Of a stretch of 37,671 nucleotides of DNA, positions 31,390-35,768 are shown in pieces. The notes beneath the pieces were generated by a model. The model saw only the letters and a list, made by a program, of their open reading frames with translations, was not told where the DNA came from and did not search any database. Origin of the DNA: Thermoleophilia bacterium. GTDB lineage: Bacteria; Actinomycetota; Thermoleophilia; Miltoncostaeales; Miltoncostaeaceae. Both the position numbers and the translations under genes were made by a program. The stretch spans positions 1 to 37,671 of the forward strand of contig JALOLS010000013.1 of NCBI GenBank assembly GCA_025455865.1, written 5' to 3'. Numbering within the stretch: the first letter of the stretch is position 1; each line of letters begins with the position of its first letter.

Positions 31390-31620
31390 CCGCGCGGCGC
31401 GGCCGCCCCGCCCGCGCCGGGCGCGCCGGATCACCCTCCACATCCGCACCGCGCCCATGACGGGGTGAAAAGAAGGATGGAGCTCTTCATCGTCGTCACC
31501 GTCGTGGTGTGGAATCGGGGGAGGACGGCGACCCCTCCCTGCTCGGAGCGGGGATGGGCCTGTTCGCGGTGGCGTGGCATGGCGGTGGAGGAACGCCCGG
31601 TCCATCGACAGCCGCCAACA

Positions 31621-31650
31621 CCCCCCGGCGCGCCGGCGCGCCGGCCGGGG
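31621..31650. repeat. GC-rich inverted-repeat block
   Basis: CCCCCCGGCGCGCC is followed by GGCGCGCCGGCCGGGG, containing two abutting 8-bp palindromes GGCGCGCC. It could fold into a strong hairpin. The role is unknown; it may insulate the divergent dnaN and monooxygenase genes. Confidence 0.4.
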
Positions 31651-31710
31651 AGGGCCGGGGATGGGCGGGGCGATCCTCCACGCGGCGCGTGCGGATGGGA
31701 TGATCGCTCC

Positions 31711-32727
31711 GTGCGGGGGATGCGCGTCATCATCGTCGGGGCCGGGGTGAGCGGGCTGACCCTCGCGCGGCTGCTCGGCCCGGCCGGCGTCCGGGTGCGG
31801 GTGCTGGACCGCGCCCCCGCCGGCCCGCCCCCGGCGCGGCCCTTCATGCTGCCGTTCCAGGGCTTCGGCGCCCTGGCCGCGGCCGGGGTGATGGACCGCG
31901 TGCGCGCCGTCGGCTGGGACGTCGCCCCCCGGGACGGCGACCCGGTCGCGGTGGTGGCCGACTTCCGGCGGGTGCACGCCCTGCTGGCCGACGGGGTGGC
32001 TGTGCGCCACGGGGCCGAGGTCACCGGGCTCGTGCGCGATGGCGACAGCCGGGTGACCGGCCTGCGCCTGGGCGCCGAGGTCCTCCCGGCGGACCTGGTG
32101 GTGGCGGCCGACGGCATCGCGAGCCCGGTGCGGGGGATGGCCGGCATCGAGGCGGTCACGACCCCGGCCGAGTGCGCCCATCTGTCGTTCCTGTCGCCCG
32201 CGGTCATCGACCGGCCGTTCGCGATGGCCTATCTGGGCGACGGCCACCAGGCCGGCCTGCTCGGGTGGCCGGAGGGGTCGGCCGGGTGGTGGGACGTGGC
32301 CCGGGTGGGGCGGGAGGCCGCCCTCGCCCCCGGCCTCGACGCCTTCCGCGAGGCCTTCGCCCGGCTCATCCCGCCGGCCCGGCCCGCCCTCGACGCGCTC
32401 ACCTCCACCGACCAGCTGACCTACCGGGAGATCGTCGAGGTCCGCTGCCCCGTGTGGTGGGTCCCGGGGGTGGTGGTCATCGGCGACGCCGCCCACTTCC
32501 TCGGCCCCGAGGCGGGGATCGGCGCCGGGATGGGCCTGGCCGACGCGCTCGCCCTGGCGCAGGCCATCGAGGCCAACCCGGACGACCCCGACGCCGCCTG
32601 CCGGCACTACGAGCACTGGCACGGGCCGGCGGTGCGGCCGTACGAGGTGGTCGGGGCGGCCGGGGCGCGGATGCCCTCCGGCGCCGGCGCGCGACGGCCC
32701 GGGGAGATCTGGCCCCCCGCGGGCTGA
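31711..32727 (+). CDS. FAD-dependent monooxygenase/oxidoreductase (UbiH/PHBH fold)
   Basis: A 338-residue flavoprotein. The dinucleotide loop is VIIVGAGVSGLTLARLL (6-22, GxGxxG), the middle motif is VVAADGIASPVRG, and the second FAD motif VVVIGDAAHFLGPEAGIGAG (Asp259) is near the C-terminus. This is the group A aromatic hydroxylase pattern; substrate unknown. GTG 31711 (6 nt after GATGAT, possibly leaderless) and ATG 31720 are both plausible starts. It converges on dnaA with 1 nt between stops and faces away from dnaN, so it interrupts the usual dnaA-dnaN pair and is transcribed against the replication fork. Confidence 0.9.
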   Translation: MRGMRVIIVGAGVSGLTLARLLGPAGVRVRVLDRAPAGPPPARPFMLPFQGFGALAAAGVMDRVRAVGWDVAPRDGDPVAVVADFRRVHALLADGVAVRHGAEVTGLVRDGDSRVTGLRLGAEVLPADLVVAADGIASPVRGMAGIEAVTTPAECAHLSFLSPAVIDRPFAMAYLGDGHQAGLLGWPEGSAGWWDVARVGREAALAPGLDAFREAFARLIPPARPALDALTSTDQLTYREIVEVRCPVWWVPGVVVIGDAAHFLGPEAGIGAGMGLADALALAQAIEANPDDPDAACRHYEHWHGPAVRPYEVVGAAGARMPSGAGARRPGEIWPPAG

Positions 32728-32728
32728 G

Positions 32729-34156
32729 CTACCCCTGCGCCGGGGCGGGCCCGGTCAGGCGGGTGGTCAGCGCCTGCACCGCGGCGAGGATCTCGCCCTC
32801 GTCGCGCATGAGCCGCGTCACCTTGTTCACCGCGTAGATGACCGTCGAGTGGTCGCGCCCGCCGAAGGCCCGCCCGATGGCCGGCAGCGACAGGTCGGTG
32901 AGCTCGCGGGCCAGGTACATGGCCACCTGCCGGGGGGCGACCACCCGCTTGGTGCGCTTGTCGCCGACGAGCTCGTCGATGGAGACGTTGTAGTAGCGGG
33001 CGACCTCCTCCTGGATCACCTCGATCCGCAGATGGCCGTCGGCGTCGGGGAACAGGTCGGTCAGCACCTCGCGGGCGAGGTCGGCGGTGACCGCCCGCCC
33101 GGAGATGGAGGAGTGGGCCACGACCCGGATGAGCGCGCCCTCGAGCTGGCGGACGTTGGTCGACACCCGGGCGGCGATGTAGGAGAGCACCTCGGGGTCG
33201 CGGATCTGGTAGCCGTCGGTGAGCACCCGCTTGCGCAGGATGGCGATGCGGGTCTCGATGTCCGGGGGCTGGATGTCGGTCATCAGCCCCATCTCGAACC
33301 GGGAGCGCAGGCGGTCCTCGAGGGTCGCGATCGCCTTGGGGGGCCGGTCGGAGGAGATCACGATCTGCTTGCCGCTCTCGTGGAGGGCGTTGAACGTGTG
33401 GAAGAACTCCTCCTGGGTCTGCTCGCGCCCGGCCAGCGACTGGATGTCGTCGATCAGGAGCACGTCGGTGGAGCGGTAGCGGTCCTTGAAGGAGCGGATG
33501 CCGCCGTCGCGGAGCGCGTTGATGAACTCGTTGGTGAACGTCTCGACCGAGACATAGCGCACCTCGAGGCCCGGGTGGTGCCCGGTGACGAAGTGGCCGA
33601 TGGCGTGGAGCAGGTGGGTCTTGCCGAGGCCCACCCCGCCGTAGACGAACAGCGGGTTGTAGGCCATGGCCGGGGTCTCGGCCACGGCGAGGGCCGCAGC
33701 CTGGGCGAAGCGGTTGGACGGCCCGGTCACGAAGGCCTCGAAGGTGAACCGGGGCTGCAGGCGCCCGTGGGCCCGCCCGACGGCCGGCGGGCCGGCGGCG
33801 GTGATCGCCGCGGGCGCCGACTCGGCCTCGGCCGGCGGGGCACCGTCGGGCACCGCCGCGGGGGTCGCGGTGCCCGGCACGACCTCGACGGCCACCTCGA
33901 CGTCGGCGCCCACCACCTCGAAGAGCGCGTCGCGGACCAGCGGCACGTAGCGCTGCAGGATCCACCCGCGGGCGAACTCGGTCTCCACCGCGAGGGTGAA
34001 GCGCCGGCGGTCCAGCGACCGGGCCTGGGCCCGGTCGAAGGTGAGGTTGTAGGTGGCGGTGTTCAGGCTGCCGCGCAGCCGCGCGCGGATCTGCTCCCAC
34101 ACCTCCGGCAGGTCGTCCTCGGGCACCGGGTCGAGCAGGGGGATGGTCGCGCTCAT
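32729..34156 (-). CDS. dnaA: Chromosomal replication initiator DnaA
   Basis: DnaA binds oriC, opens it and recruits the helicase. The 475 residues include domain I (1-90, [19 protein letters not shown]), a Pro/Ala-rich domain II (about 90-135), the AAA+ core with Walker A GGVGLGKT (173-180) and Walker B VLLIDD (232-237), and the DNA-binding domain IV signature [17 protein letters not shown] (430-446). All key residues are present. The start is ATG 34156 without a strong Shine-Dalgarno. The upstream GHKL-ATPase gene ends 43 nt before it on the same strand, and no separate promoter was seen in that gap, so the two are probably cotranscribed. Confidence 0.98.
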
Positions 34157-34199
34157 GCCGGCGGCCCCGCGGCCCGCGGCGTCGATGGGCCGGCCACGA

Positions 34200-34922
34200 T
34201 CAGAAGAGGGTCGCGAGCAGGGCGGCGCCGCGCTCGGTGAGCGTGCGGGCGCCGTCGGGGGAGCGGGAGACCAGGCCGCGGTGCTCGAGCAGGACCAGTT
34301 CGCGGCCGCAGACCGCCACCGGGAGCACGAGCTCGCGGGCGAGCACCTCGGTGCCCGCCGGGGCGACCTCGAGCAGCAGCGCGAGCAGGCGCCGCTGGAC
34401 GTCCGACGGCGCCGGATCGGGCAGCGGGACGTCCGGCCCGCCCGGGACGCTCAGCGTGACCACCGTCCCGCCGGCCAGGTTGGCGGCCAGGTCCAGGCTC
34501 CCGCCCTCGGCGCCGACCAGCCCGGCGGCGAGCGGCAGGCCGCAGCCGGCGCCGCGGATGACCTCACGGGCCGCCGCGTCGGCGGTGCTGAAGCCGGGCA
34601 GCATGGCCCGGGCCGGATCCGCGATCCCCGGGCCGGCGTCGCTCACCCGGACCGTGCGGCCGCCGTCCAGCACGCTGACCAGCGCGTCGGCGAAGCCGGC
34701 GTGCACGAGGTTCTCGATGATCTCCCGCAGGGCCAGCGGGGGCACCGCCGCCGCGGCCGCCGAGCGGGTGAACAGCTCCTCGATGAGGAGCGCCGGGTCG
34801 TCCTCGCAGACCAGCGCGACCTGGGGCGGCTCGAGCGCGCCGCCGTAGACCGCCACGCGGGCGCCCGCCGACGAGGGGGCGCGGGCGGCGGTCGGGTCGG
34901 CGGTGAGGAGGAGGCTGGTCAC
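34200..34922 (-). CDS. Stand-alone GHKL ATPase with a C-terminal winged-helix-like region
   Basis: A 240-residue protein between oriC and dnaA. Residues about 40-160 form a histidine-kinase-type ATPase domain: N box REIIENLVHAGF (66-77, Asn71), G1 box DAGPG (95-99) and G2 box GAGCGL (124-129), closing with GGTVVTLSVP. There is no phospho-acceptor His domain and no membrane segment, so it is not a classical sensor kinase; anti-sigma factors of the RsbW/SpoIIAB type share this solitary fold. Residues 172-240 (DVQRRLLALLLEVAPAGTEV, LLEHRGLVSRSPDGARTLTE) have the helix-helix-wing look of a winged-helix domain, which is inference. GTG 34922 is the start. It leads the dnaA transcript from an extended -10. 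A role in controlling initiation is suggested by position only. Confidence 0.85.
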   Translation of the reverse strand: MTSLLLTADPTAARAPSSAGARVAVYGGALEPPQVALVCEDDPALLIEELFTRSAAAAAVPPLALREIIENLVHAGFADALVSVLDGGRTVRVSDAGPGIADPARAMLPGFSTADAAAREVIRGAGCGLPLAAGLVGAEGGSLDLAANLAGGTVVTLSVPGGPDVPLPDPAPSDVQRRLLALLLEVAPAGTEVLARELVLPVAVCGRELVLLEHRGLVSRSPDGARTLTERGAALLATLF

Positions 34923-34947
34923 GTGCTCGCGTTCGTGGCGGGGCGCG

Positions 34948-34956
34948 AATGTAGCA
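34948..34956 (-). promoter_or_regulatory. Extended -10 for GHKL ATPase-dnaA
   Basis: The minus strand reads TGCTACATT (TGn plus TAnnnT). Transcription would start near 34941, about 19 nt before the GTG. No good -35 is visible at the right distance. Confidence 0.45.
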
Positions 34957-34981
34957 ACGGCGTTTCAACCGGCGTGAGGGG

Positions 34982-34990
34982 TGTGGACAG
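34982..34990 (-). promoter_or_regulatory. DnaA box
   Basis: TGTGGACAG, i.e. CTGTCCACA on the minus strand; seven of nine bases match TTATCCACA. It lies about 26 nt upstream of the GHKL-dnaA -10, so DnaA bound here could affect its own operon. Confidence 0.6.
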
Positions 34991-35083
34991 GCGAATGCCG
35001 AGCGAGCGGGAATTTCGTGTCCGGGCTCGCGCCGGGGATCATCACGCCGGTCCAGAAACCCGCATGGGCAGCGGGATCCGGAG

Positions 35084-35092
35084 TTCTCCACA
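35084..35092 (+). promoter_or_regulatory. DnaA box
   Basis: TTCTCCACA, eight of nine bases of TTATCCACA. First of a tight cluster of three. Confidence 0.6.
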
Positions 35093-35095
35093 GAC

Positions 35096-35104
35096 CTGTC
35101 CACA
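35096..35104 (+). promoter_or_regulatory. DnaA box
   Basis: CTGTCCACA, seven of nine bases of the consensus, starting 12 nt after the start of the previous box in the same orientation. Confidence 0.6.
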
Positions 35105-35106
35105 GA

Positions 35107-35115
35107 TGTGGAGAG
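35107..35115 (-). promoter_or_regulatory. DnaA box, inverted
   Basis: TGTGGAGAG, i.e. CTCTCCACA on the minus strand, only 2 nt from the previous box and facing it. Confidence 0.5.
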
Positions 35116-35145
35116 CCCCGATCGAGGGGTCCCGGCCCGGCCGGA

Positions 35146-35154
35146 TGCTATGCT
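35146..35154 (+). promoter_or_regulatory. Extended -10 for the rpmH operon
   Basis: TGCTATGCT matches TGn plus TATnnT. Transcription would begin near 35161, leaving a leader of about 70 nt before rpmH. Confidence 0.5.
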
Positions 35155-35230
35155 CCCGCGGCTCGACAGCCGGACGGCGGGCGACTCCGTCCTGCCCGGC
35201 GTGCGGAGACCCTGAAGGAGCGGCCAGAAC

Positions 35231-35365
35231 GTGAAGCGGACCTATCAGCCCAACACGCGCAAGCGCAAGAAGACCCATGGTTTTCGCAAGCGGATGAGCA
35301 CGCGGGCGGGCCAGGCCATCCTCAAGCGTCGCCGCGCCAAGGGCCGCGCCCGGCTGTCCGCCTAG
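35231..35365 (+). CDS. rpmH: 50S ribosomal protein L34
   Basis: A 44-residue gene reading [18 protein letters not shown] at the N-terminus and ending [12 protein letters not shown], the unmistakable L34 sequence (KRTYQPN...HGFR.RM.T..G...L..RR.KGR..L). L34 is a small basic protein of the large subunit. The GTG start at 35231 has AAGGAG about 10 nt upstream. It opens the rightward operon next to oriC, its normal location, and is followed by rnpA 10 nt later. Confidence 0.98.
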
Positions 35366-35375
35366 CATTGGCGCC

Positions 35376-35768
35376 ATGCACGGGGCCCACTCCGACGGGG
35401 CCCGCTGGCCGCGGGATCGGCGCGGGCGCATCACCCGCTCGCGCGACTTCGACGCCGTGTACCGCCGCGGGCGATCCGCCGCGAGCCGCCATCTGGTGCT
35501 CTATGCCTTCCCCCGCGAGGACGCCGGCGACGATCCGCCGCGCCTGGGGCTCTCGGTGTCGCGCCGGGTCGGCAACGCCGTCGAGCGCAACCGCGTGAAG
35601 CGGGTGCTGCGTGAGCAGTTCGCCCGCATCGCCCCCGGGCTGCCCGCCGGCGTGGACTTCATCGTGATCGCCCGCCCCGGCGCCGCGGCGTACGTGGAGG
35701 AGCGCGGCTCGGCCGCCCTGGGCGAGCGCCTGGGGGAGCTCGCGGCGCGGCTGGCGGGGGCCGGATGA
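35376..35768 (+). CDS. rnpA: Ribonuclease P protein component
   Basis: RnpA is the protein cofactor of RNase P, which trims the 5' ends of tRNA precursors. The 130 residues contain RITRSRDFDAVYRRGRS (18-34), the RNA-binding signature RVGNAVERNRVKRVLRE (64-80, RNR at 71-73) and DFIVIARPGA. The N-terminal 15 residues (MHGAHSDGARWPRDR) are longer than usual and the start ATG 35376 has no clear ribosome site, so translation may depend on rpmH. The stop overlaps yidD as ATGA. Confidence 0.95.
   Translation: MHGAHSDGARWPRDRRGRITRSRDFDAVYRRGRSAASRHLVLYAFPREDAGDDPPRLGLSVSRRVGNAVERNRVKRVLREQFARIAPGLPAGVDFIVIARPGAAAYVEERGSAALGERLGELAARLAGAG

Follow-up and report, generated by a model that had tools for sequence, protein, structure and literature searches.

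The GHKL-winged-helix gene and its neighbours

The window, by which we mean the whole 37,671-nucleotide stretch of DNA analysed here, carries ahead of dnaA a gene encoding 240 amino acids from a GTG start (34200..34922, minus strand), recognized by its open reading frame, its Pfam domains and its orthologs across the phylum, and referred to below as the GHKL-winged-helix gene. The dnaA gene (32729..34156, minus strand), identified by its Pfam DnaA domains, starts 43 nt 3' of it on the same strand, and inspection of the neighbourhood places rpmH (35231..35365, plus strand) as its divergent neighbour on the other side. No terminator-like site was found in 32600-35400, hence none between the GHKL gene and dnaA, and the window is without an Rfam match.

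The ATPase domain occupies residues 64-160 (34443..34733, minus strand), where the window protein matches Pfam HATPase_c above the curated cut-off (E 5.5e-8). The assignment is shared by all 56 divergent members that were aligned, each of which matches HATPase_c, and by the fold search. Only about 60 residues precede this domain, and the window protein gives no Pfam match at E<=1 either to a HisKA/HisKA_3 phosphoacceptor domain or to an AlbA_2 domain, for which there would be no room. Alignment of the members delimits, all on the minus strand, an N box REIIENLVHAGF (34692..34727), in which E67, N71 and H74 are invariant, a G1 box DAGPGI (34623..34640), in which D95, G97, P98 and G99 are invariant, and a G2 box GAGCGL (34536..34553), in which G124 and G128 are invariant; glycines 110, 141 and 152 are likewise unchanged in all 56. 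These boxes, set in a Bergerat fold, make the protein a member of the GHKL superfamily, and the earlier description of a GHKL gene with intact N, G1 and G2 boxes and no phosphoacceptor domain is borne out by both Pfam and the motifs. The glutamate four residues ahead of the Mg-binding asparagine serves as general base in GyrB, MutL, Hsp90 and SpoIIAB, while histidine kinases carry an asparagine at this N-box position. The N-box glutamate of the present family suggests a GHKL domain of the ATPase or kinase type. Between close pairs dN/dS is 0.04-0.17 over the whole gene, and often even lower over the winged helix; at the level of sequence, an ATP-binding fold that is intact and under selection is well supported.

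The C-terminal part, residues 168-240 (34203..34421, minus strand), is a winged helix of MarR/IclR type. Pfam assigns residues 166-224 of the window protein to DprA_WH above its curated cut-off (E 2.7e-5), and TrmB/IclR/MarR-type HTH families match many of the 56 members, in which the recognition-helix Arg207 is kept in 52 and the wing Arg226 in 50. A structure predicted from the window protein together with eight close relatives has a mean pLDDT of 79 and a pTM of 0.57; pLDDT runs at 75-95 across residues 170-240 and at 62-90 across residues 20-160, with the ATP-lid block the lowest inside the ATPase part. In this model the C-terminal domain is predicted to form the tri-helical core and wing of the fold; when Foldseek matches are realigned, residues 168-240 are matched by chains of MarR type with Z 12-13.6. 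A C-terminal winged helix, suggested in the earlier note, is thus seen by Pfam, by the HTH matches across members, in the predicted model and in the fold matches. In Coriobacterial members (L119-L122, L126, L127, L136-L138) the GHKL and winged-helix domains, both retained, are joined by a long, often Pro/Gln-rich linker.

Relation to described proteins

The ATPase part finds its best solved structure in DIP2311 of Corynebacterium diphtheriae (PDB 3lmm; Z 14.9, rmsd 2.8 over 144 residues, from realigned Foldseek matches), and Foldseek alone places histidine-kinase ATPase domains and 3lmm at its top ranks. Because winged-helix chains make up most of the realigned list, nothing can be read from the lack of other ATPase families in it. 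In profile searches against PDB sequences, the ATPase part matches histidine kinases, CheA, BCKD kinase and MutL, and the tail matches metal-responsive, IclR and AdcR-type regulators.

How close are these matches? DIP2311, which we take to be an AlbA_2/HATPase_c_4-type regulator, has a similar ATPase part, and Foldseek aligns 263 columns to it, but the two proteins share 12% identity with no match at the sequence level, and the DIP2311 chain, which has an additional domain at its N terminus, is roughly double the length. Sensor histidine kinases such as EnvZ, CpxA and KinB provide the best PDB sequence matches and share the Bergerat fold and the G1/G2 spacing, but the GHKL-winged-helix protein lacks their phosphoacceptor helix and sensor, and has Glu rather than Asn in the N box. 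SpoIIAB, RsbW and RsbT resemble it in having a solitary GHKL domain, an N-box Glu and Asn and a DxGPG motif; these proteins have no winged helix, and their genes sit with those of STAS partners. The comparison with RsbW/SpoIIAB made in the earlier note stands for the fold and the N-box Glu but fails for family membership, since the protein falls far below the cut-off of the TIGR01925 spIIAB model. MarR, IclR and TrmB regulators share the C-terminal fold and the HMM matches, but in the present protein this fold is coupled to a GHKL ATPase as input domain.

None of the curated NCBIfam models reaches its own cut-off for the GHKL-winged-helix protein, and searches of open-access papers turned up no account of the gene. 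No described family fits it. GHKL domains and winged helices are both common; what is new is a compact protein that combines the two and is fixed beside dnaA.

Distribution and linkage to dnaA

A set of relatives comprising 61 genomes, 37 of them from the window's own family, yields a clear ortholog in 30 of the 37, and 10 further orthologs in two other families of the same class. In six of the seven own-family genomes without an ortholog dnaA, too, is missing from the assembly, and in the seventh dnaA is only partial, at the end of a contig, so these absences are assembly gaps. At a threshold of E<=1e-20, a profile built from the 40 orthologs matches 65 of 299 genomes of the class and 156 of 396 genomes of the phylum Actinomycetota, and every matching genome has exactly one match. 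Families f3, f5, f6, f7 and f8 of the same class are without the gene, and its absence from several related families shows that initiation as such can proceed without it. In one outside phylum, sampled around an Eisenbacteria contig, none of 47 genomes has a full-length match, with one partial match to the ATPase domain (9e-16), and viral contigs hold no relative of the protein. One member of family f23 is presumably Rubrobacter xylanophilus, and the family is hence termed Rubrobacter-type below. The carriers include the Coriobacteriia Cryptobacterium curtum (PMC3035227) and Atopobium parvulum (PMC3035223). A contig titled Bifidobacterium breve (CAMCDF010000004.1, locus L034) carries a dnaA region of the window's family at 62% identity; it is apparently G030's own contig, G030 being a member of that family, and the title is probably wrong.

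Eighty loci from 23 families were inspected: 30 belong to the window's own family, 10 to two sister families and 40 to another 20 families. In 75 of the 80 the next gene downstream, in the same orientation, is dnaA; in the remaining five the contig or chromosome record ends right after the GHKL gene, so that no counter-example exists among the 80 and the linkage to dnaA, which the earlier note had named as a check, holds across the phylum. The two reading frames are often only a few nucleotides apart, with 6 nt from GHKL stop to dnaA start in the best-sampled genus (TAGNNNATG), and rpmH is divergent in all inspected loci where it is visible. Architecture, conservation, a single copy and a fixed place before dnaA are all direct observations.

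On the other side of dnaA, a FAD-dependent monooxygenase-like gene (about 31600-32727, plus strand) lies between the window's dnaA and dnaN. The dnaA-dnaN gap of the window is 1352 bp and has zero DnaA-box-like sites; in seven relatives checked it is 262-399 bp, with 1-4 such sites.

The rpmH-side gap

In the gap between the GHKL gene and rpmH (34923-35230), three DnaA-box-like sites, at 34982, 35084 and 35096, each carry one mismatch, where about 0.2 such sites are expected, and there is no box with zero mismatches. Own-family rpmH-GHKL gaps in general have 2-5 such sites at up to one mismatch, again against about 0.2 expected. The earlier note placed the gene between oriC and dnaA. The DnaA-box-like sites make that placement, beside a putative oriC, plausible. 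An extended -10-like sequence, TGCTACATT (34948..34956, minus strand), lies upstream of the GHKL gene and is recognized by consensus only, in the sequence itself and in the relatives' alignment. A composite site, AAATTCCCGC-N15-CTGTCCACA (34982..35015, minus strand), has a DnaA-box-like second half and occurs in 30 of 30 family genomes. Site scan and alignment also delimit a cluster of DnaA-box-like sites at 35084..35112, without assigned strand, that includes the inverted pair TCCACAGATGTGGA at 35099-35112; an inverted pair TCCACANNTGTGGA is present in the rpmH-GHKL gap of 11 of 11 loci in one genus, where an extended -10-like sequence also precedes the GHKL gene, and of 13 of the 18 remaining own-family loci.

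Could any of these elements be the operator of the GHKL-winged-helix protein? Of 30 own-family genomes, 29 have a single copy of the composite, generalized as WWWTYSCCGC-N15-17-(DnaA box core), and the other (G020) has two; the reversed control pattern has zero matches in 36 genomes. Presence at the own-family loci is by construction, because the pattern was drawn from them, and the informative part of the result is its near-uniqueness genome-wide. As an operator the f1 composite was rejected: it is nearly absent from GHKL-bearing loci outside f1, and its first half, of TTTTTCCCGC type, precedes dnaA in f7 and f5 loci that lack the GHKL gene. In the Rubrobacter-type family, NTGCAAA-N3-7-TTT lies beside DnaA boxes in 20 of 20 loci (0.11 expected), but CTGCAAA-N-TTT is also found before dnaA in GHKL-lacking f3 (4/4) and f8 (1/1), and was set aside likewise. 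Because whole or partial copies occur in relatives without the gene, both motifs probably belong to the promoter or the origin, and none of the conserved motifs of the promoter region can be assigned as the operator. CTGCAAA-N3..9-TTT adjoins DnaA boxes both in GHKL-bearing f23 and in GHKL-lacking f3 and f8 (L055, L057-L059, L061, L151-L170), which makes it a candidate for an undescribed dnaA-promoter or oriC element. In three f23 loci (L115, L117, L118) the dnaA-dnaN gap has 15-16 DnaA boxes without a mismatch, and oriC is therefore likely to lie downstream of dnaA there.

Proposed function and alternatives

Little is established about the control of DnaA beyond E. coli, Bacillus and Caulobacter. 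An ATP-binding domain and a DNA-binding-type domain fixed together before dnaA make the protein a likely, if putative, regulator of the start of chromosome replication, and the nucleotide-sensing regulator of DnaA or oriC suggested in the earlier note is partly supported. The form of this idea that we prefer, and to which we give roughly even chances, is that the protein serves the dnaA operon as a one-component DNA-binding regulator responsive to ATP. The GHKL gene would be the first gene of that operon and be co-transcribed with dnaA. Its GHKL domain, to judge from the invariant N, G1 and G2 boxes with their general-base Glu, would bind ATP and change state with nucleotide or partner, and the MarR/IclR-type winged helix would contact DNA, most likely in the divergent rpmH/GHKL-dnaA promoter region beside the DnaA boxes. 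Transcription of dnaA, and hence replication initiation, might in this way track the energy or nucleotide state of the cell.

Does the protein instead act on DnaA or the origin directly? Its winged helix could bind oriC, the protein could bind DnaA, or both, with the ATP state licensing or blocking DnaA assembly. The role would be analogous to that of SirA, Soj, YabA, DiaA and Hda, whose folds are unrelated to the GHKL-winged-helix protein; SirA, Soj and DiaA act on DnaA assembly by those other folds. A place beside DnaA boxes and dnaA that stays fixed across the whole phylum would suit such a regulator, and so would the pairing of a DnaA-box-like site with a second element at a near-constant spacing of 15-17 nt, once in nearly every family genome. 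However, the dense DnaA-box cluster of f23 sits on the far side of the gene, between dnaA and dnaN, and a mirror-tree comparison of the GHKL protein with DnaA (r 0.30, partial -0.06; crude, from BLAST-trimmed sequences) shows no co-variation beyond that of DnaN, which mildly favours transcriptional over direct control of DnaA. We consider direct action unlikely, though as the main alternative it deserves some weight.

Two further explanations would uncouple the protein from initiation. Genes around the origin tend to keep their order, and rpmH, rnpA, yidC, dnaN and recF hold their places around dnaA without a functional tie in every case; a housekeeping protein of other function might have stayed there for that reason only. 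Against this, linkage has zero exceptions in the 80 loci, the GHKL and dnaA frames are commonly almost contiguous, and the gene is missing from several families in which the flanking order persists; mere neighbourhood appears improbable. A kinase or partner-switch protein like RsbW or RsbT, with the winged helix as a protein docking surface and targets unrelated to dnaA, would account for the GHKL fold and for an N-box Glu of the SpoIIAB/RsbT type, and one relative has a weak match to TIGR01925 (E 1.6e-4). The spIIAB scores are 13.2 and 21.6 bits against a cut-off of 135, however, no STAS partner stood out among the window's ORFs (without a dedicated STAS search), and the arginines of the recognition helix and wing are kept; this explanation we regard as very improbable.

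We advance a broader scheme tentatively and with somewhat less than even confidence: a so far undescribed, phylum-wide, energy-sensing initiation switch, in which the ATP state of the protein would directly couple nucleotide supply to dnaA expression or to DnaA action at the origin, and which would have been kept in deep-branching Actinomycetota but be lacking from the phylum's other lineages. A single-copy gene that is never away from dnaA in 23 sampled families is a candidate for lineage-specific control of initiation, and its carriers, through the Coriobacteriia, include bacteria of the human gut and mouth.

A separate arrangement is seen in family f6, where four loci (L053, L054, L056 and L060) have a ParA/Soj-like gene divergent upstream of dnaA, at the usual place of the GHKL gene.
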